A stretch of 64,000 nucleotides of DNA, from contig CAKZJV010000007.1 in the NCBI GenBank assembly GCA_937120475.1, forward strand, positions 2,806,068 through 2,870,067, written 5' to 3'. The translations under genes and the position numbers were made by a program. Shown here piece by piece: positions 7,528 through 46,115 of the stretch. This DNA is from an uncultured Cryomorphaceae bacterium. GTDB taxonomy: Bacteria; Bacteroidota; Bacteroidia; Flavobacteriales; Schleiferiaceae. The notes beneath the pieces are model-generated. The model saw only the letters and a program-made list of their open reading frames with translations. It had not been told where the DNA came from and searched no databases. How positions within the stretch are numbered: position 1 is the first letter of the stretch; every line of letters begins with the position of its first letter.

Positions 7528-8472
7528 CTATTCCTGTTCCGGAAAATCCAGCTTCTCTATTATTTCCGGTAAAATGCGAATGGAGGCCATTTCGCGATAC
7601 TTCCTGCGAATATCATCGGCAGGGGTACCGGCATAGGTTTTACCACCCGGTAGCGACTTGGAAACACCGGATTGGGCAGAAACCACTGCTCCCTTGCCAA
7701 TGGTAACTCCGCTGGTAATGCCTACCTGGCCCCAAAGGGTAACGTTATCTTCAATAACCACACAACCGGCAATGCCCACTTGTGAGGCAAAAAGGCAGTT
7801 TTCACCAATGCGGGTGTCATGCCCTACCTGCACGTTATTATCTATTTTGGTGCCTTTACCAATACTAGTATCTCCGCTTACCCCACGGTCAATGGTGCAA
7901 CCAGCCCCAATGTCCACATGGTCTGCAATAATCACCTTTCCACCGGAAATAAGGCGATCATAACCCTCAGGTCGTTTCTTGTAATAAAAGGCATCGGCAC
8001 CCAATACCGTATTGGCATGAATGATCACATTATTACCAATAATCGTATTGTCATAAATGCTCACATTGGAATGTATGCGGCAATTGGAACCGATACTTAC
8101 GTTATTGCCAATAAAACAATTGGGCTGTATCACGGTGTTTTCGCCTATTGCAGCCGAGGGTGCAATAGAAGAGGCGGCAGACTGAAAAGGATTGAACTTT
8201 TTAGTGAGTGCATTAAAATCCCGGAAGGGATCATCCGAAATGAGGATGCCCTTCCCGGAAGGTACGGTAACGTTCTTGTTGATTAATATGGTTGTGGCCG
8301 CACTGTTCAGTGCCTTATCGTAGTATTTAGGATGATCCACAAATACCAGATCACCCGGTTCAACTACGTGGATCTCGTTGATACCCTTAACCTGGTGGTC
8401 AGCGGGGCCCTCAAAATCACAATCCAGTAATTCGGCCAGTTCCTTCAGGGTGTACGAACGTGGAAATTTCAT
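7528..8472 (-). CDS. LpxD-like UDP-3-O-acyl-glucosamine N-acyltransferase paralogue
   Basis: 314 residues. An N-terminal LpxD-like domain (about 1-95) leads into a left-handed beta-helix of hexapeptide repeats (about 100-290), including NNVQVGHDTRIGENCLFASQ with the histidine position used by LpxD. It is the second lpxD homologue in this operon; the other is at 11878-12906. It overlaps efp by 4 bases (ATGA), so the two are translationally coupled. In Flavobacteriales a second LpxD-like gene after efp is common. It may add a different acyl chain or modify another sugar nucleotide; which paralogue serves lipid A is not settled by sequence. Confidence 0.8.
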   Translation of the reverse strand: MKFPRSYTLKELAELLDCDFEGPADHQVKGINEIHVVEPGDLVFVDHPKYYDKALNSAATTILINKNVTVPSGKGILISDDPFRDFNALTKKFNPFQSAASSIAPSAAIGENTVIQPNCFIGNNVSIGSNCRIHSNVSIYDNTIIGNNVIIHANTVLGADAFYYKKRPEGYDRLISGGKVIIADHVDIGAGCTIDRGVSGDTSIGKGTKIDNNVQVGHDTRIGENCLFASQVGIAGCVVIEDNVTLWGQVGITSGVTIGKGAVVSAQSGVSKSLPGGKTYAGTPADDIRRKYREMASIRILPEIIEKLDFPEQE

Positions 8473-9035
8473 TCTTTCGCCCTTTCCTTGTACTCTCCGG
8501 TGGAGCTATCGATAACAATCTTATCACCCTGGTTTATAAAAAGGGGCACGCGTACCTCGGCACCGGTTTCAACCGTGGCGGGTTTTAAGGTGTTGGTAGC
8601 CGTATCTCCCTTAATGCCGGGTTCAGTATAAGTAATTTCCACCGTTACTTTTTGGGGTAATTCGCAAACCATGGGGCGGTCCTCATCTGCGTGGAAAAGT
8701 ACCTGGCACTCCATACCTTCCAATAAAAATTCAGGGGCATTGATAAGTTCCTTGGCGATGGTAATTTGGTTGTAGTCCGCCATATTCATAAAATGATAGC
8801 CGGACGGATCATTGTATAAGAACTGGTAGGTACGGTTTTCCACACGTATTTCTTCAATTTTTGCGCCCGAGGGAAAGGTGTTTTCCAATACTCTTCCGTT
8901 GTCCAGGTTCCTGAGCTTGGTGCGCACAAATGCTGGACCTTTGCCGGGTTTTACGTGCAGGAATTCTATAATTTGATACGGTGCACCGTTAAAGTTAATG
9001 CACAGTCCATTGCGTATATCAGAGGTAGAAGCCAT
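8469..9035 (-). CDS. efp: Elongation factor P
   Basis: 188 residues, the normal length, with the three-domain EF-P pattern. The loop HVKPGKGPAFVRTKL places a lysine (Lys32) at the modified tip, so it is the Lys type acted on by EpmA-like enzymes rather than the Arg type used by EarP. EF-P enters stalled ribosomes and relieves polyproline arrest. No epm gene is in the window. An exact promoter element lies 18 bases upstream (9054-9061), giving it transcription separate from the upstream ABC gene. Confidence 0.95.
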   Translation of the reverse strand: MASTSDIRNGLCINFNGAPYQIIEFLHVKPGKGPAFVRTKLRNLDNGRVLENTFPSGAKIEEIRVENRTYQFLYNDPSGYHFMNMADYNQITIAKELINAPEFLLEGMECQVLFHADEDRPMVCELPQKVTVEITYTEPGIKGDTATNTLKPATVETGAEVRVPLFINQGDKIVIDSSTGEYKERAKE

Positions 9036-9053
9036 AGTTCAATTAAATTTCGA

Positions 9054-9061
9054 CAAAAATA
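9054..9061 (-). promoter_or_regulatory. -7 promoter element (TATTTTTG) for efp and the lpxD-like gene
   Basis: Exact TAnnTTTG match on the minus strand, 18 bases before the efp ATG, inside the 35-base gap after the ABC ATPase gene. No clear -33 element. Confidence 0.4.
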
Positions 9062-9070
9062 AGCTTTATA

Positions 9071-9691
9071 CTATTTGTAATTTTTTATTTCCAATTGGTG
9101 CTCACAAAAGTGAATTTCCGTTTCATTGAAGTTGCTACCCACCAAAATGGTGCGGTCCTGGCGGTATTCCTGGATTAGTTTTTTATACCATTCCATACCG
9201 GCCGGGTCCAGGTTGGAGGAGGGCTCATCCAGCAAGATGAGGGACACATCACTGCCCAGGGCAAGGGCCAATCTCAGGCGTTGCTTCATGCCGGAACTGA
9301 AGTTGCGTATTTGTTTATCCCGGGCTTCTTCAAGCCGGGCCAGTTTCAATAATGATGGAGGGGTAAGGCCCGCGGTGAAGTTTTTGAATTTCAGGTGAAA
9401 CCGCAGAAATTCCAGGGCCGTCAATTCTTCAATAAGCTCAAGGTAAGGAGCGGCAATCGAAATGCGGTAGGGAGCGTCATTGGGATGTACCGATGTACCG
9501 TTCGAGTAATAATGAATTTTACCTTTACTAGTACCCAAAGCCCCTAAAACGGTTTTAATGAGGGTGGATTTTCCACTTCCGTTTCCGCCCAAAATAGCAT
9601 AGGTGCCGCCCTGTTCAAAGGTGTAACTGAGATTGCTGAACACCTTTTGGCGATTAAATTTTCGGGCTATTCCCTCCAGCCGTACTTCCAT
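9071..9691 (-). CDS. ABC transporter ATP-binding protein, stand-alone
   Basis: 206 residues. Complete nucleotide-binding domain: Walker A GGNGSGKST at 35-43, signature FSSGMKQRL at about 135, Walker B and D-loop LILLDEPSSNLD at about 155-166. No permease gene is nearby, and the protein has no membrane segment. It starts 6 bases after lpxA and so is co-transcribed with lipid A genes. The small size is like CcmA/NatA-type subunits. It could energise an envelope export step with an unlinked permease, but the partner is unknown. Confidence 0.8.
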   Translation of the reverse strand: MEVRLEGIARKFNRQKVFSNLSYTFEQGGTYAILGGNGSGKSTLIKTVLGALGTSKGKIHYYSNGTSVHPNDAPYRISIAAPYLELIEELTALEFLRFHLKFKNFTAGLTPPSLLKLARLEEARDKQIRNFSSGMKQRLRLALALGSDVSLILLDEPSSNLDPAGMEWYKKLIQEYRQDRTILVGSNFNETEIHFCEHQLEIKNYK

Positions 9692-9697
9692 ACTTAA

Positions 9698-10480
9698 TTA
9701 TTCCAGTCGGAAACCTTTCATAATACCGCTTTGTGAATTGCGGATGAAAGTGATGATCTCATCCCGCTCCTGGGTGGCTTCAAATTCGGTTTCAATAATA
9801 TCCAGTGCCTGGGTGGTGTTGTATTTCTGCTGGAAAAGGATGCGGTAAATATTCTGTATTTCGTTGATCTTTTGGTTTTCATATCCCCGCCTGCGCAAGC
9901 CGATGGAGTTGATACCGGCATAAGAGATGGGCTCCTTTGCGGCTTTTACGAAGGGCGGGACATCTTTACGCACCAATGACCCTCCTCCCACAAAGGCATG
10001 AGTACCGATCTTCGAAAACTGCTGGATAGCACACAAGCCCCCGATGATGGCCCAGTCTCCCATTTCTACATGGCCGGCCATTAGGCAGCCGTTCACAATC
10101 ACACAATGGTCACCGATAACACAGTCATGCGCGATGTGTGCACAAGCCATTAGCAGGCAGTTATTACCGATTACGGTTTTGCCCAGGGCTTTGGTACCAC
10201 GGTTAATGGTCACACACTCCCGTATGGTGGTATTATCACCAATTACTACCAGGCTGTCTTCCCCTTCAAATTTAAGGTCCTGCGGTATGGCCGATATTAC
10301 GGCCCCCGGGAATATGCGGCAGTTCTTGCCGATCCGGGCACCTTCCATAATGGTTACATTGGAACCGATCCAGGTGCCTTCACCAATTTCCACATTTTTG
10401 TGAATGGTGGTAAAGGGCTCAATAACCACGGTATTGGCAATTTTTGCTGAAGGGTGAACGTATGCCAGCGGCTGATTCAT
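9698..10480 (-). CDS. lpxA: UDP-N-acetylglucosamine O-acyltransferase (LpxA)
   Basis: 260 residues, the family length. Hexapeptide-repeat beta-helix at about 5-185 and a helical C-terminal domain at about 190-260. The stretch ACAHIAHDCVIGDHC contains the catalytic His, and GCLMAGHVEMGDWAIIGG matches LpxA. It performs the first lipid A step, moving a 3-hydroxyacyl chain from ACP to UDP-GlcNAc in the cytoplasm. It lies 3 bases after lpxC-fabZ in the same operon. Confidence 0.95.
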   Translation of the reverse strand: MNQPLAYVHPSAKIANTVVIEPFTTIHKNVEIGEGTWIGSNVTIMEGARIGKNCRIFPGAVISAIPQDLKFEGEDSLVVIGDNTTIRECVTINRGTKALGKTVIGNNCLLMACAHIAHDCVIGDHCVIVNGCLMAGHVEMGDWAIIGGLCAIQQFSKIGTHAFVGGGSLVRKDVPPFVKAAKEPISYAGINSIGLRRRGYENQKINEIQNIYRILFQQKYNTTQALDIIETEFEATQERDEIITFIRNSQSGIMKGFRLE

Positions 10481-10483
10481 AGC

Positions 10484-11881
10484 TTAATTTCTTTCTTTTA
10501 CAATCTGCGCCATTAAGTGCGCCTCACTTACCAGTTTATTCCCTACGTAAGCCTCCCCGTGCATTTGTACAATACCTCTTCGGATGGGCTCACTTAATAC
10601 GAGTTTAAATACTAAAGTATCTCCCGGAACCACCTTTTGCTTGAATTTTACACTGTCCATTTTCAGGAAGTAGGTGAGGTAATTTTCCGGGTCGGGAACG
10701 GTACTCAGGGCCAGGATGCCTCCTACCTGAGCCATTGCTTCTACCTGCAACACCCCGGGCATTACCGGTGCACCAGGAAAATGGCCCTGGAAAAAGGATT
10801 CATTCATGGTTACATTTTTAACCCCCACCACACTGTCTTTGGTAAGCTCAATAATCTTATCCACCAAAAGGAAGGGTGGGCGGTGAGGCAGGCGTTGCAT
10901 GATTTCGATGGTATCATAAAACGGTTTAGCGTTGGGGTCGTAGGTGGGTACATTGGGTTTTTTCTCCTCCTGCCTTATTTTTTCCTGGATGAGCTTGGCA
11001 AACTCGGTATTGCCTTTATGCCCGGGTTTGGTGGCAAAAATTCTTCCTTTAATGGGCTTACCGGCCAGGGACAGGTCACCAATCACATCCAATAGCTTAT
11101 GGCGCGCGGCTTCATTGGGGTAATGGAGGTCAAGGTTATCCAGTATGCCGTTGGGTTTAACCGCTACATTTTCCTTTTTAAAGGCTTTCTTAAGTTTTTC
11201 CAGGGTTTCCGGTGAAACCTCCTTATCTACGTACACAATGGCATTATTGAGGTCACCGCCTTTGATAAGGCCGTGTTCGAGCAGCAACTCCAACTCATGT
11301 AAAAAACTGAAGGTGCGGCAGTCGGCAATATCTTTTTTGAAATCGGGCAGATGGTTTAGAGTGGCATTTTGGCTTCCCAAAACCTTGGTGCCATAGTCCA
11401 CCATCACCGAAACCTGGTACTCATCGGCCGGTACGGCCATTAATTCTACCCCTTCTTCCTTTAACTCAAGTCGGATAGGTTCCCTTATTTCAAAGTAATC
11501 ACGTTCCTCAGCCAGTTCTTCAAGGCCCACTTTTTCGAGAGCCTCCACAAAATATTTGGAACTGCCGTCCAGAATGGGCATTTCCGGGCCGTCAATATCC
11601 ATTATGCAGTTATCCACGCCAAGACCTACGAGTGCAGCTAAAACGTGCTCTACGGTATTTACAACGGCTTTGTCTTTGCCTATGGTTGTGCCCCGGTCGG
11701 TACTAATCACATAATTGGCCAGGGCGGGTATCTCCGGTTGGCCTGCCATATCGATTCGCCTGAAAACAAAGCCCGTATTGGCCGGAGCGGGGTGGAAGGT
11801 AAGGGTTACTTTGGACCCGGTATGTAATCCGGTACCTTCTATGCTGGTACTCCCTTTCAGAGTTGTTTGCTTAATACTCAT
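10484..11881 (-). CDS. lpxC-fabZ: Bifunctional LpxC deacetylase / FabZ 3-hydroxyacyl-ACP dehydratase
   Basis: 465 residues in two parts. Residues 1 to about 300 are LpxC, the zinc UDP-3-O-acyl-GlcNAc deacetylase, with [33 protein letters not shown] and a late HKGNTEFAK. Residues about 325-465 are FabZ with [13 protein letters not shown] and [20 protein letters not shown], the hot-dog dehydratase motif. This fusion is a known trait of the Bacteroidota and related phyla and balances lipid A with fatty acid synthesis. It overlaps lpxD by 4 bases at its start and lies 3 bases before lpxA. Confidence 0.95.
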
Positions 11882-12906
11882 TGTTGTAGCGATTGCATCT
11901 GTTTCTTTAGGTTGTCGATATCTTCAGCCAACTGCGCCAGTTTTCTGAAATATACATAGGACTTTTTGTATTCCCTCAAGCCGAAGGCAGGGGAACCTTG
12001 TACAATTTCCCCGTCTTTAATATTGTTACCGATACCACTTTGAGCCGCAATTTTCACGTCATTTCCGATGTTCAGGTGGCCAATAATACCCACCTGACCG
12101 CCTATCATGCAGTTCTTCCCTATTTTGGTAGATCCGGCAACACCGGTTTGTGCCGCTATAACGGTATTCTCACCGATCTCCACATTGTGGGCAATCTGTA
12201 TGAGGTTATCCAGCTTAACACCCTGGCGAATAATGGTGGAACCCAGAGTAGCCCGGTCAATGGTGGTGTTGGAGCCGACTTCCACATGATCTTCAATAAT
12301 CACATTACCAATCTGGGCAACCTTGTCGTAGCTGTTGTTATTGGGTGCAAACCCAAAACCGTCACCCCCCACTACTACACCGCTGTGCAGCGTAACGGAT
12401 TCACCAATCCTGCAATCGGCATAAATTTTAGTGCCGCTAAAAATGAGGCAATCCTTCCCTACCTGGGTATTATCCCCGATAAAACAGCCGGGATAAATTT
12501 TGGTGTTGTCCCCGATCTTTACGTTTTCACCAATGTAAGTGAATGCGCCTACGTAACAATCCTTCCCGATGGAGGCACTGGAAGACACAAAGGATTGGTC
12601 TTCTATTCCGCTACGGGTGTGTTGCATTTGGTTGTACATTTCCAAAAGCCGCGCGAAGGCCTGGTAGGCATCGGGAACTTTGATCAATGTAGAATTAAGC
12701 TTCTCTTCGGGAACAAAATCCTCGTTAACAATAACAATGCTTGCATTGGTCTTGTAAATAAAGGGAATGTACTGGGGGTTTGCTAAAAAGCTCAGAGTGC
12801 CGGGTTGGCCTTCCTCAATTTTGCTGAGGTTGCTGACCTTTACTTCCGGGTTACCTTCAACCCTGCCACCTACCAAGTCAGCTATTTGATTTGCGGAAAA
12901 TTCCAT
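11878..12906 (-). CDS. lpxD: UDP-3-O-(3-hydroxyacyl)glucosamine N-acyltransferase (LpxD)
   Basis: 342 residues, full LpxD length. N-terminal uridine-binding domain (about 1-100, with [20 protein letters not shown]), hexapeptide beta-helix (about 105-310) with [20 protein letters not shown] carrying the catalytic His, and a C-terminal helix. It adds the N-linked acyl chain in lipid A synthesis. First gene of the lpxD/lpxC-fabZ/lpxA run, and it overlaps lpxC-fabZ by 4 bases. A promoter element ends only 5 bases before its ATG (12912-12919), so its message may be nearly leaderless. Confidence 0.95.
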
Positions 12907-40750: not shown

Positions 40751-42694
40751 CTACAATTTCACTACTTTTTCCTCCTTTAATATGCGCCCCTGCGCATTGA
40801 ATATAATGAGATAATACACCCCACTTCGCAAGTGCCGGGTATGAAAAGTAAAACGGTTGTTGCCTTCGCGGGCAGCTTCCTTTACCAGGAATTGCTCATC
40901 CACACCACTTCCGCTGATTGATATCAGTTGGAAGGTGAGCATTTCGGGAGCATCCAGTTCAAACTCTATGGTATAATTGTCAAAAGTGGGGTTAGGCAAT
41001 ATGCGTACTTCCGTAAATGGTGGTAAGGAATCCAGAGGGTTTACAGTGGTGTCTATGGGGTTGTTGGTGGTATCAATTGGTTTAGGCTTAATGGGGTCCA
41101 GGTTGTAATCCGGGCTGCGAAGTTTAGCCATTACCGTACGCGGCCCATTACCTGCTGTGGAGCTGTAGGCCGACATCCAAACCACTCCCGTTTCACCGTA
41201 GGCAGGTTGTGCCCCGATGTAGTCGCCCCAGCGTTCGTAGCCAGGGTCGCCAGAGGGCCTTAATACATCTACAAAACCATCTCCCGTATCTACAACGGTT
41301 AAAGCGGAGTAGGACGAATCATTAGAAAAGAATACGCAGGAAGAGCCGGAATTGAAGTTCGGCCCCGTGTGGTTAAAACTGATAATGCCCTCATTTTCCA
41401 ATTCGGATTTACCCGTATAGCAAATGCTGGGATATCCAAAATCGAGGCTATCCATTTCCATAATCTTAAAGTAAATAGGATCGGTATTGGGTTTGTTGAG
41501 ATCGATCATGGCATGGTAAAAACCACTAAAGCCCTGGCTGGTAACGGTATTGCCCACAAACTGTATAATATCGTTCTGGTAAAAGCCCCCTTGTATGCGG
41601 CTGTCGTTACAGTCAAAGCGGTTGTTATTGCGCTGCCGCGCATCCGGTGGAAGACCGTACGGAGTTTCCGATTGGTAAATACTGAGCTCAAGGTCGGGAG
41701 GAGTAGCCGCACTGCTGCTATCCGTTATTTTCACTAAAAAAATACTATCGTTTGTCAGCGAGAGATTTCGGTTGGATATAAAATAGGCCGGTGCATCGTA
41801 CGGATTATTACCTCCCATCATACCGGTAAAATTGAAAAGAGCCCGGCCACCAACCTTAATATCGCTGTAATAAAACTTGCGTAATACGGGCAAACTGTCG
41901 TAACCGTCCTGTTTATTAACCTGGCGTATGGTGGATTCCACGTAACCACTGTTGTTGCTGGAGCCGTTGAAAAAGGTATTCATGGTAATGAAAAGATCCT
42001 GTCCGGTTACCATAATTTGCGGGTAGTCGCTCCAGGTATCATTATTCAATGGGTTACCGTTGAGGGCATAAATGTAAAATCCGTCTGAAGGGTCGGCCGT
42101 TTTGCTGAAGGCTACGATAATCTTGCTTTTTTGGTAAATGGTAGCGTTGAGGAATACCACTATAAAACGATCGCTGTGCGGATCGTAAACCACACGGGGG
42201 TCGTATTTAATTTCAAAAACCCGCAAGCCTTCGCTAATGGTAAACACGTTCAGGGGTGTTTCAAAAAGCAAGCTGTCCTTATTGAGATCATACGCCAGTA
42301 TAGAGGTGTTAATTACGGAAATGATTTGGTTATTGCCGTTGATGGCAAAGGAATTGTCGTTGGGCACGCTGCCGTTAAAAGCATTGCCTTCGAATACCGA
42401 AAGCACTTCAGGAGAGTCGTAACTCCCAAAGCTCACTTTCGATTTTTTATCTTTGGAAAGAACTGGCTTTATGCGCGCTTTCAGCTCCCTCAATTTTTGG
42501 TCACTAACTTCGGTGCCGGGTTTGGGAGCCTCGCTGGAGTGCAGCACGGGTCCGAACTTTTGTTGAATTTGGTTGGGCACAAAGTCACCGATCAATTCGG
42601 CATCATTAAGCGTATGACGCTTATAGGTAAAATCCTGCCCCACAGCGCTACAGACCAGTGCAAACAAAAAGGTAAGGGATAGTAATTGCTTCAT
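40751..42694 (-). CDS. Secreted protein with type IX (type A) C-terminal sorting domain
   Basis: 647 residues. Signal peptide MKQLLSLTFLFALVCSAVGQ. Residues about 100-520 have regular beta-propeller-like repeats with Asp-rich turns (VYDPHSDRFIVVFLNATIYQ is one) but no enzyme motif I can name. A Pro/Thr linker with DPIKPKPIDTTNNPIDTTVN precedes a T9SS sorting domain of about 80 residues: VRILPNPTFDNYTIEFEL, then LRSGVYYLIIFNAQGRILKE. Expected at the cell surface or secreted. Function unknown. Convergent with kmo, with one base between the stops. Confidence 0.82.
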   Translation of the reverse strand: MKQLLSLTFLFALVCSAVGQDFTYKRHTLNDAELIGDFVPNQIQQKFGPVLHSSEAPKPGTEVSDQKLRELKARIKPVLSKDKKSKVSFGSYDSPEVLSVFEGNAFNGSVPNDNSFAINGNNQIISVINTSILAYDLNKDSLLFETPLNVFTISEGLRVFEIKYDPRVVYDPHSDRFIVVFLNATIYQKSKIIVAFSKTADPSDGFYIYALNGNPLNNDTWSDYPQIMVTGQDLFITMNTFFNGSSNNSGYVESTIRQVNKQDGYDSLPVLRKFYYSDIKVGGRALFNFTGMMGGNNPYDAPAYFISNRNLSLTNDSIFLVKITDSSSAATPPDLELSIYQSETPYGLPPDARQRNNNRFDCNDSRIQGGFYQNDIIQFVGNTVTSQGFSGFYHAMIDLNKPNTDPIYFKIMEMDSLDFGYPSICYTGKSELENEGIISFNHTGPNFNSGSSCVFFSNDSSYSALTVVDTGDGFVDVLRPSGDPGYERWGDYIGAQPAYGETGVVWMSAYSSTAGNGPRTVMAKLRSPDYNLDPIKPKPIDTTNNPIDTTVNPLDSLPPFTEVRILPNPTFDNYTIEFELDAPEMLTFQLISISGSGVDEQFLVKEAAREGNNRFTFHTRHLRSGVYYLIIFNAQGRILKEEKVVKL

Positions 42695-42812: not shown

Positions 42813-45800
42813 TTGAAAAAACCATATACTTTTTCTTTTCGATTACTTATAGTGCTGATTTTCATTGGGATTTCATCTCAAATGAAAGCGCAATTCTTCT
42901 ATGGCCTACAGCAGGAATACGGTAAAAACAGAGTTCAATATAACGACTTCGACTGGGTTTTTTACCGGCTGGATCGATATGACGTTTACTTCTACCGTGG
43001 TAACGAAGAACTGGCGGCCCAGGTGGCCCGCCTCACTGAAAAACACCTGGTAAGGGTAGAAAATTTCCTGGATGCGCCCCTGGATGAGCGGGTGCAGATA
43101 CTGGTGTTCAATAACCTTTCCGATCTCAAGCAAAGTAATGTAAACTCTAATGATGATGAAGACTACAATACGGCAGGGGTTACCCGTATTTCGGGCCGCA
43201 GGCTGTTTTTGTATTTCAACGGTAATTATGAAGAACTGGAAGATAACCTGCGCTCCGGTTTAACGGAGGTTGTGCTTAGCAATCTGGTGTATGGCAGCTT
43301 TACCGAGTCCATAAAAAATTCGGCTTTATTAAATCTCCCCGAGTGGTATGTTGAAGGATTGATCAGTTATATGGGTGATCGCTGGAATTCGAAAGTGGAC
43401 ACCCGCGTAAGAGACGGTTTCCTGAGTGGCCGCTACAAGCGAATCAACGCTTTGATGGGTGAAGAAGCTCGTTACGCAGGTCATTCCATGTGGTATTACA
43501 TCGGACAAACCTACGGGCAAAAGGTGATTAAGAACATCGTATATATGGCCATTATCAACCGCAACATCGAGAGCGGTTTTAATTACATACTGGGTAAGGA
43601 CTTGGATGCTATTACGGATGGTTGGAGAAACTACTATAAAAACCTGTATAAGGAGGCTGCGGAAGAGGACGATCTTCAAGGTAAACCACTATTGAAAGCC
43701 CCAAAAAATCGCGTGTTCGTAAGGATGTCGGCCAGTGAAAATGGCCGTTACCTGGCCTACGTTTGTCAAAAATTCGGGGAGTACAAGGTTTACATTTATG
43801 ACCGTGAAAGGGATAAAAAGAAGCGTATTTTAAAGGGGGGCTACAAAATTGCTCAGAATACAGATTATTCCTTTCCCTTGATGGCCTGGCACCCCAACAA
43901 TAATATCCTGGCCATGATTACGGAAGAGAAGGGTTTTATCTTCCTGAACTTTTACAACCTGGAGGAAGGTAAACTGGAGAAGAAGAATTTTTACAAGTTC
44001 GATAAAGTACTGTCCTTTCAATATTCCAGGGACGGGCAGCGCTTTCTGCTTTCGGCCGTTAAGGATGGGCAGTCGGATATATTCCTGTACACTATCCTTA
44101 ATACCAAGGTTGAGCAACTCACCAACGACTCCTACGATGACCTCAATCCTGCCTTTTTCGATAATGATAAGAGGGTGGCTTTTACCTCTAACCGGATCAC
44201 GGATACGCTTAAACAGGGTGAGGAGTCTTTCGCCTTTCCGCAGGAAACCTTCGATATTTTTGCGATGGAGGCCCGTGAGCCGGAAGATACCAGCGTGATA
44301 TGGAGAATGACCAATAGCATGGGAATTGATGAAGGTAATTTGGCGGAATACGCTCCCGGTTTCCTGGCCTTTACCAGCAATGCCTCCGGTACCTTGAACC
44401 GTCACCTTATTAAAATAGATAGTGCTATCGCTTATGTAGATACTACTACCCATTATGAGTATTCCTTTGAAGAGTACAAAATAACCAGCCGTAACCGCAA
44501 TATACTGGGCCATGAGTTTGTGCCTGAAACAGGTTATACCTATGACCGGATACTCAGGAATAACCGTTACCAGATTTATGAGACACCTTATAAAAGTCCC
44601 GCAGAACTTAGTTTGGTGCCTCTGAAGAGTGCCGTATTGCCGGTGGAAGAAACGGAGCAGAAAGATCAGGCGGATCAGTTTCAGATACTTTCGGAGTCGC
44701 AAACACCGCTTTATTATCCCGGGGTGGACCCCGATGAATTTGAGATTAATATCGAAGATTACGAGTTTGACGATGCCGGGGAAGAGCGGCCCAGCCGCAA
44801 GGAAAAGCTAACGCCCAGGAAGATAAACATACTCCCCAAACCGGAGGTGATTACCACGGTTGCAGAAGAGGAGAAAGAAGAGTTGGAAATACCTCCGCAG
44901 CGGAATTACTTCCTTTCCTTTTACGAGGACGATATGAGCGTTGGCTTCGACAATGTTTTTTCCAATCCTCAATACCAAAGGTTTACAGGCTTTGTAACGC
45001 CCGACCTTTTAAACTTTGGGTTTAATGCCAATATCAAGGTTGGAGTTACGGACCTTATGCACGACTACAGTATAATAGGCGCGGTACGTACCACTTTCCA
45101 ACCGCTTAACGGTACCTCTATTGTTCCAAACGCTGAATTTTATGTGGCCTTACTCGACTATAAAAACCGTTGGGATAAGGAGTATATATTTTCCCGTAGA
45201 AGCCAGTTGCTGGTGCAGGGTTTCAACAGTTACGAACGGATTATTACCCACGAAGTATTTCCGAAAATAATTTACCCCTTTAACCCGGTGTCGTCCATGC
45301 GGGGAGGTATCGGTTACCGCATAGACAAATCGATAAGCCTGAGCCGCGAGCCTTTTTCATTGAATAACGAAGACGTTTACCGCGACTACCTGATAGCGCG
45401 CCTGGCCTACGTTTACGACAATACCCGGAAACTGGGTCTTAACCTTTACAGTGGCCTCCGCTACAAGATTTTTACCGAGTATTACCGCAGCCTGAAAGTT
45501 AGCCCCACCGGCTTACATACGGCTGGTATTGATGCCCGGCATTATACCGTTATTCACCGTAACCTGATATGGGCCAATCGCTTTGCTTCCGGTGTTTCCT
45601 TCGGTCCTGAAAAGCTCATTTACATTATGGGAGGGGTGGACAACTCTTTCTCCAACCGTTTTGAACCCAATACTCCTTTTGCCCAGGATGCCAATTATAT
45701 TTTTCAAACCCTGGTTACCAACATGAGGGGGTCGTTCCAGAATATCCGGAACGGTGATAAGTTCGCGGTAATCAATAGCGAAATACGTTGGCCCTTCCTG

Positions 45801-46115
45801 AGCTACTTCTTTAAACGCCCTATCCGCAGCGATTTCTTCAAAAACCTGCAATTGATAGCTTTTGGTGACGTGGGTACCGCCTGGAACGGACTTACTCCTT
45901 ATTCGGAGGAAAATGTGATCAACAGCAGAACCATTCCCTTTGGTAACGGCAGCATAGTGCTGGATAGCCAGAAAGAACCGATTGTAGCCGGTGTGGGAGG
46001 CGGTTTACGTACGCGCCTGTTCGGGTACTTCCTGCGTTTCGACCTCGCCTGGGGTATTGAGGACGGACTGGTTAAACCGAGCGTTTTTTACTTTTCGCTG
46101 GGGACGGATTTTTAA
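42813..46115 (+). CDS. Outer-membrane protein joining peptidase-MA-like, TolB-like propeller and Omp85-like barrel regions
   Basis: 1100 residues, TTG start. Signal peptide ends at QMKAQ (about 27). Residues about 30-270 resemble the peptidase-MA/gluzincin fold (LNLPEWYVEGLISYMGDRW), but I see no HExxH, so it is probably inactive. Residues about 290-560 carry PD40/TolB-type repeats (HPNNNILAMITEEKGFIFLN and FDNDKRVAFTSNRITDTLKQ). An acidic linker lies at about 610-720. From about 725 the chain is a barrel; its end (VINSEIRWPFLSYFFKRP, LQLIAFGDVGTAWNG, final Phe) matches the bacterial surface antigen (Omp85/BamA) barrel. No POTRA domain is evident. Homologues occur in the Bacteroidota, often labelled TolB; role unknown. 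Confidence 0.75.
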   Translation: MKKPYTFSFRLLIVLIFIGISSQMKAQFFYGLQQEYGKNRVQYNDFDWVFYRLDRYDVYFYRGNEELAAQVARLTEKHLVRVENFLDAPLDERVQILVFNNLSDLKQSNVNSNDDEDYNTAGVTRISGRRLFLYFNGNYEELEDNLRSGLTEVVLSNLVYGSFTESIKNSALLNLPEWYVEGLISYMGDRWNSKVDTRVRDGFLSGRYKRINALMGEEARYAGHSMWYYIGQTYGQKVIKNIVYMAIINRNIESGFNYILGKDLDAITDGWRNYYKNLYKEAAEEDDLQGKPLLKAPKNRVFVRMSASENGRYLAYVCQKFGEYKVYIYDRERDKKKRILKGGYKIAQNTDYSFPLMAWHPNNNILAMITEEKGFIFLNFYNLEEGKLEKKNFYKFDKVLSFQYSRDGQRFLLSAVKDGQSDIFLYTILNTKVEQLTNDSYDDLNPAFFDNDKRVAFTSNRITDTLKQGEESFAFPQETFDIFAMEAREPEDTSVIWRMTNSMGIDEGNLAEYAPGFLAFTSNASGTLNRHLIKIDSAIAYVDTTTHYEYSFEEYKITSRNRNILGHEFVPETGYTYDRILRNNRYQIYETPYKSPAELSLVPLKSAVLPVEETEQKDQADQFQILSESQTPLYYPGVDPDEFEINIEDYEFDDAGEERPSRKEKLTPRKINILPKPEVITTVAEEEKEELEIPPQRNYFLSFYEDDMSVGFDNVFSNPQYQRFTGFVTPDLLNFGFNANIKVGVTDLMHDYSIIGAVRTTFQPLNGTSIVPNAEFYVALLDYKNRWDKEYIFSRRSQLLVQGFNSYERIITHEVFPKIIYPFNPVSSMRGGIGYRIDKSISLSREPFSLNNEDVYRDYLIARLAYVYDNTRKLGLNLYSGLRYKIFTEYYRSLKVSPTGLHTAGIDARHYTVIHRNLIWANRFASGVSFGPEKLIYIMGGVDNSFSNRFEPNTPFAQDANYIFQTLVTNMRGSFQNIRNGDKFAVINSEIRWPFLSYFFKRPIRSDFFKNLQLIAFGDVGTAWNGLTPYSEENVINSRTIPFGNGSIVLDSQKEPIVAGVGGGLRTRLFGYFLRFDLAWGIEDGLVKPSVFYFSLGTDF

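Follow-up and report, generated by a model that had tools for sequence, protein, structure and literature searches.

How can an outer-membrane barrel of the Omp85 superfamily manage without POTRA domains, and what might the domains found in their place do for it? The question is posed by a gene of an uncultured Cryomorphaceae bacterium, located in a stretch of 64,000 nucleotides that we analysed as a whole and call the window (contig CAKZJV010000007.1, positions 2,806,068 to 2,870,067 of the forward strand). The gene spans 42813..46115 on the + strand, from a TTG start to the stop codon at 46113-46115, and encodes 1100 amino acids. A sequence-only reading had placed a peptidase-MA-like domain, TolB-type repeats and an Omp85-type barrel in this order in one protein, and structure prediction and structure matches back both the parts and their order. 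As modelled, a single protein joins a gluzincin-fold domain lacking the zinc motif, a TolB-type propeller, a disordered linker and a 16-stranded Omp85 barrel, and it contains no POTRA domain. We consider it about an even bet (roughly 0.5) that the protein belongs, as a Bacteroidia-type form, to the POTRA-less WD40-Omp85 kind and serves as a periplasm-facing outer-membrane biogenesis factor resembling the translocation and assembly module (TAM) or the β-barrel assembly machinery (BAM), its peptidase having turned into a binding module.

The full-length model reached a mean predicted local distance difference test score (pLDDT) of 76 and a predicted template modelling score (pTM) of 0.74. Residues 704-1100 (44922..46112, + strand) are modelled as a barrel ending in a C-terminal Phe, with 16 strands counted in its DSSP list. 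Among the structures listed, this region matched BamA of D. radiodurans (8xnb_A) with a Z score of 24.6, a root-mean-square deviation (rmsd) of 4.4 and 321 aligned residues, and BamA of F. johnsoniae (9n2e_A) with Z 23.6; the family of the barrel, on which the sequence-only reading hinged, is by structure match Omp85. The propeller occupies residues 287-592 (43671..44588, + strand) in the model. Its residues 287-584 matched 2ojh (Z 22.5, rmsd 3.0, 245 aligned) and TolB (Z about 22), and its sequence matched solved TolB at E 2.7e-4 and the NCBIfam TolB model at E 1.2e-14, the latter far under that model's cut-off. Since the linker between them (residues 593-703, 44589..44921, + strand) has mostly low pLDDT and is mostly disordered in the model, it holds no POTRA domain. 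POTRA is also absent from the 25 Pfam families that matched the 27 rows of alignment A1 at E 0.1, in agreement with the earlier claim that it is missing. Alignment A1 comprises the window protein and 26 of 34 open reading frames (ORFs); L001 (the window), L003, L004, L005, L023, L029, L033 and L034 were left out as near-copies, partial or unrelated. PD40 matched 23 of these 27 rows, Peptidase_MA_2 5 and Omp85 (PF01103) 2 at the same threshold. In the window protein itself Pfam found a weak PD40 alone, slightly under its cut-off, and at E 1 matched neither the barrel (PF01103) nor the peptidase. Sequence profiles alone, giving a weak PD40 and a sub-cut-off TolB, therefore overlook two of the three parts. 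Chance or an artefact as an explanation of the architecture is ruled out by the 27 aligned rows in single ORFs.

The N-terminal domain (residues 35-284, 42915..43664, + strand) was assigned to the gluzincin fold from its model and structure matches. Residues 35-300, modelled alone with 55 rows, gave a pLDDT of 87 and a pTM of 0.83. The top solved structure among the matches listed was the M9 collagenase 8jt1_A (Z 16.0, rmsd 4.3, 230 aligned), and the M30 lugdulysin 7bb8_A (Z 15.1, rmsd 7.1) and M1 aminopeptidases were matched as well. The domain is largely helical, and for such folds a Z near 13 may be unspecific; we nevertheless assign it to the gluzincins because the titles of its structure matches and the sequence profiles of its relatives agree. 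Judged by their titles, almost all 50 structure matches listed are gluzincin enzymes, and Peptidase_MA_2 matches 33 of 55 N-terminal domains at E 0.01, the window's own remaining unmatched. A profile of the domain run against PDB sequences matched the start of the propeller only. The earlier reading had noted that HExxH is missing, and the alignment bears this out: S-G-L-T-E (residues 148-152, 43254..43268, + strand) stands where H-E-x-x-H would be. The counterpart of the third zinc ligand in W-x-x-E-G, Glu181 (43353..43355, + strand), is retained as Glu. The window domain has the gluzincin fold, and of the signature of HExxH plus downstream Glu it keeps Glu181 alone.

The zinc site was also scored across relatives. 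Outside the window's class HExxH is intact in all 81 scored loci (HELVH in 59, other forms in 22). The sample is non-random: its 82 loci were hand-picked, one per genome, among the matches listed, with family f36 thinned, and L189 was left unscored, the copy of its genome (L081) having HELVH. A first, largely overlapping locus set had given 26/26 outside the class and 0/14 within it. For trees we used 89 of 103 collected rows after removing 14 with an identical 300-residue core (alignment A2 holds 55 of the 89). HExxH is present in 36 rows and absent from 53, which all belong to the window's class or to the named Owenweeksia record. In the trees, which were quick, unrooted and without bootstrap and had several long branches flagged, rows with and without HExxH were separated by one branch with a value of 100 in the Shimodaira-Hasegawa-like approximate likelihood ratio test. 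The split persisted after the site columns were removed and on the propeller alone, and shuffled motif labels needed 28 changes on average. Because the enzyme fold is present, the window's side probably lost its zinc site, as opposed to never having had one. Among the letters tabulated for the 53 rows, His never occurs at column 152. The simpler idea that the whole class of the window lacks HExxH is refuted by six genomes of one family of that class (f16; L112-L117) carrying HELVH or HEMVH copies, which group with a plasmid protein of Salinibacter; transfer and an old duplication are the candidate origins of these copies.

To judge from sequence conservation, the dead domain shows no decay. 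Averaged over 26 relatives, identity to the window protein is 52.9% in this domain, 55.2% in the barrel, 43.2% in the propeller and 26.6% in the linker. Against the closest named relative (L002, a metagenome-assembled genome labelled Owenweeksia sp., 80% identity) the nonsynonymous distance is 0.079, 0.082, 0.158 and 0.405 for the same four parts; it was used alone since, for most domains, synonymous change has reached saturation in the comparison with the nearest relative. Conservation of the dead domain is thus about equal to that of the barrel, after a probable switch from live to dead enzyme on one branch. Within the barrel, M-R-G-S (residues 971-974, 45723..45734, + strand) aligns as the loop-6 segment, and we take it to be the counterpart of the Omp85 VRGF motif. 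Arg972 and Gly973 are each present in 52 of the 53 rows without HExxH, where the following residue is F in 44, Y in 6 and S in 2, the window having R-G-S. The loop-6 Arg occurs in 29 of the 36 HExxH rows, which include one barrel-less protein and perhaps misaligned ones. D-V-G-T-A-W (residues 1019-1024, 45867..45884, + strand by alignment) presumably corresponds to the Omp85 D-x-G strand motif. Amid the fast-evolving, disordered linker, the alignment also contains a short conserved motif, about [IV]-[DN]-x-x-[DN]-Y-x-F (residues 645-652, 44745..44768, + strand), whose Phe652 is kept in 53/53 rows without HExxH; it is perhaps a plug or a partner-binding segment.

The gene is the sole match of its own genome at E 1. 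Across the phylum the A1 profile matches 193 of 296 genomes at E 1e-10; of these, G061 at least is a false match. The propeller-only matches of G061, G071 and G130 (E 1e-8 to 1e-13) were dropped as relatives; by eye the ORF of G061 has the appearance of a tricorn-type protease. Contig-end and locus-end fragments aside, relatives among the matches listed are open frames of about 1040-1280 codons, with two of 1530 (G148, G153). The copies in L205 and L206 (1204 and 1202 codons) are above most in length, and L066:3621-8210 is a 1530-codon frame with about 440 extra codons on the N-terminal side and a putative start codon. No case was seen of the domains being split between two genes. There is, though, a barrel-less peptidase-propeller protein of 634 amino acids with HELVH on the Salinibacter ruber plasmid pSR116 (L108:5911-7812), annotated as basic secretory protein-like; the gene after it does not match the A1 profile, and the plasmid search matched this one record.

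What might the protein work with? By a home-made profile, a TamB/AsmA-like gene lies upstream in 55 of the 81 outside-class loci; when only the 78 loci whose upstream flank reaches 4 kb or more are counted, the figure is 54. The gene is on the same strand and 2022-3299 bases away in 54 of the 55 loci, and divergent in G257. The link spans 12 of 25 family codes outside the window's class. RNase R is present in 56 of the 81 loci, and in the 54 that have both it stands between the two. Pfam identified three of seven such neighbours, as TamB (L072, L079) or AsmA (L102). In 8 of 26 genomes (G146, G195, G245, G366, G332, G257, G342, G256) a match of the Pfam TamB model PF04357 above its cut-off lies next to the gene; in G146, G195, G257 and G256 it is the sole match of the genome. 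Other envelope genes occur nearby. A heptose-pathway-like gene (RfaE2 profile) lies in the stretch of 28 of the 81 loci. In L121-L123 the upstream cluster reads uppS, bamA, ompH twice, lpxD, lpxC/fabZ and an lpxA-like gene, followed by a sugar kinase and an RfaE2-like gene. L097, from the window's order and without HExxH, has uppS-bamA-ompH-ompH-racemase ahead of the gene. Pfam, run on six genes of L121 and four of L097, confirmed bamA with POTRA, one ompH, lpxD, lpxC/fabA and the kinase in the former and uppS, bamA, ompH and the racemase in the latter; the remaining identities are by clustering or by eye. This gene context in relatives supports an assembly role, as the sequence-only reading had suggested, without being proof of contact.

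The protein is probably exported, going by its N-terminus. By eye, residues 1-26 (42813..42890, + strand) form a likely Sec signal peptide without a lipobox Cys; the hydrophobic segment ends in KAQ ahead of FFYG, residues 1-30 are free of Cys, and Q27, F28, Y30 and G31 are invariant across the 27 rows of A1. POTRA domains of characterised Omp85 proteins are periplasmic and so is the N-terminal enzyme domain of PlpD (PMC11116518), and we favour an accessory biogenesis factor with gluzincin domain and propeller as POTRA stand-in for this reason. The N-terminal half would face the periplasm and do the job of POTRA, binding substrates or partners for the barrel; the barrel itself may contribute to outer-membrane biogenesis as an accessory insertase or as a conduit. 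Ancestrally, the protein may have acted next to a TamB-like protein bridging from the inner membrane, and it may have been proteolytic as well, for instance as a quality control when outer-membrane proteins stall. In the clade of the window the peptidase would then have lost its activity and been retained for binding. If true, this would be an outer-membrane assembly route without POTRA that formerly carried its own protease.

Several observations weigh against this proposal. No TamB-like, RNase R or bamA ORF was found by the home-made profiles across the whole window. Of 37 loci that mostly carry the window-clade form (36 different ones, L004 and L207 being one contig; L210 alone has HELVH, the others lack HExxH), not one shows a TamB-like gene or RNase R within the stretch covered, and only L097 has bamA near the gene. 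Outside the class the TamB-like neighbour is absent from 26 of the 81 loci. Pfam also confirms its identity only in part: the neighbours in L067, L075, L082 and L088 stayed unmatched (several of the seven are truncated where the locus ends), that of L121, a whole gene, matches DUF748 only, and PF04357 matches nothing genome-wide in G229, G263 and G381, whose neighbours were recognised as TamB-like by the home-made profile alone. Six linked genomes (G245, G366, G332, G342, G402 and G216) carry, in addition, an Omp85-TamB pair elsewhere, the two matches lying no more than 5 kb apart. RNase R is hard to place in the model, and carriage is patchy, with 33 of 146 genomes of the order matching at 1e-5, three of them by propeller alone.

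A more ambitious reading is that deep lineages of the phylum have a second TAM, one that lacks POTRA. In it, a zinc peptidase-propeller-Omp85 protein paired with its own TamB-like bridge would couple the delivery of lipid or protein with proteolysis of its own at the outer membrane; in the window's part of Bacteroidia the peptidase would have died once, the operon fallen apart and the remnant, represented by the window protein, become a non-catalytic assembly factor. We give this reading perhaps one chance in three.

Two further explanations appear unlikely to a similar degree. In the first, the protein would be a BamA-BamB-like fusion, its propeller a built-in BamB/TolB-like docking platform and its partner the BAM complex instead of a TamB-like protein. 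This was suggested for WD40-Omp85 (PMC4104836), and it fits the presence of bamA in L097, at a distance of 2.2 kb upstream, and in the gene clusters of L121-L123, but these four loci stand against TamB-like neighbours in 55 of 81, a weak comparison given that most flanks are too short to show a bamA 15 kb off. In the second, the barrel would be a mere anchor and the peptidase-propeller half a tethered binding protein or protease acting on periplasmic or exported proteins. The barrel-less protein of pSR116 demonstrates that this half exists by itself, with HELVH, and PlpD is an Omp85 scaffold serving another use (PMC11116518), yet the window's clade is without the enzyme motif, and the barrel is its best conserved part. 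A surface translocon secreting its own N-terminal domains or a partner, which the sequence-only reading had considered, is highly improbable: two-partner secretion pores of the superfamily do secrete proteins, but nothing we found speaks for it, an even strand number leaves both barrel ends on one side, characterised POTRA domains are periplasmic and the enzyme domain of PlpD stays inside (PMC11116518). The built-in periplasmic sensor proposed in the same reading is a conjecture.

The surroundings of the gene in the window are of another kind. It is flanked by metabolic genes, a protein with a type IX secretion system (T9SS) tail and an nth-like gene (metabolic and nth by eye). The T9SS-tail neighbour is divergent (40751-42694, - strand), its C-terminal sorting domain falls slightly under the Pfam cut-off (26.1 of 27 bits), and homologues lie near the gene in five loci, window included. 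ORFs at 7528-12906 (- strand) match home-made LpxD/LpxA and LpxC profiles (E 1.9e-53 to 4.3e-145); this lpx cluster is about 30 kb from the gene and on the opposite strand. Elsewhere in the genome PF01103 matches three places, the window gene not being one of them, and the third (G000:C9:744-1178) is a frame of 447 codons close to where contig C9 begins.

Compared with known systems, the N-terminal domain shares its fold with the gluzincin metallopeptidases (M9, M30, M1; Pfam Peptidase_MA_2), and the relatives of the window protein also share HExxH and W-x-x-E-G. The zinc motif is lost in the window's clade, as in 7edx_B (Z 13.1, a value that may be unspecific), which we take to be TAF2, a dead M1 homologue. 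With TolB of Tol-Pal the protein shares the propeller fold (Z about 22), and this much of the association raised earlier stands; its N-terminal domain is of gluzincin fold and not that of TolB, and membership in Tol-Pal is ruled out, TolB_N having no match in the window's genome at E 1. BamA shares the 16-strand barrel and the RG loop motif, and bamA lies in the same cluster in four loci of relatives, but the window protein has no POTRA and its genome has three other Omp85 places. TamA or TamL with TamB shares the Omp85 barrel and, in 55 of 81 outside-class relatives, the TamB/AsmA-like neighbour. The window protein differs from TamA/TamL in having neither the three POTRA domains nor a lipobox cysteine, with peptidase and propeller instead, and no TamB-like gene is in the window. 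We take PF00149 to be the metallophosphoesterase model. A separate 'Metallo' Omp85 subfamily with PF00149 is distinct from the window's kind (PMC4104836). PlpD, a patatin-Omp85, likewise carries an N-terminal enzyme-fold domain on an Omp85 barrel, but has patatin, described as a phospholipase, and POTRA where the window protein has gluzincin domain and propeller (PMC11116518).

The closest likeness is to the POTRA-less "WD40-Omp85" subfamily named by Heinz & Lithgow (2014, PMC4104836), who accept POTRA-less Omp85 subfamilies and liken this one to a BamA-BamB fusion; Omp85 subfamilies with WD40-like domains are described as poorly characterised (PMC11116518). It shares a TolB-like propeller before an Omp85 barrel and the absence of POTRA, and differs in that no peptidase domain is given for it: the main text of PMC4104836 has no word starting with 'peptidase', and 'metalloprotease' there refers to another subfamily. 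The main texts on TAM evolution (PMC4494059) and TamL (PMC12045153) do not mention WD40, and the F. johnsoniae BAM paper (PMC12611786) mentions neither propeller nor peptidase. In our literature search, which covered the titles and abstracts listed and main texts, neither the peptidase domain nor its loss nor the tamB-RNase R-Omp85 linkage was reported, and no experiments on any member turned up. The findings offer a candidate partner, the TamB/AsmA-like protein, and relatives whose enzyme could be assayed. The pairing that the sequence-only reading had found unusual is less surprising in its propeller and POTRA-less barrel, described in 2014 (PMC4104836); as far as these sources go, new to the architecture are the N-terminal peptidase domain and, in relatives, the linkage to a TamB/AsmA-like gene.

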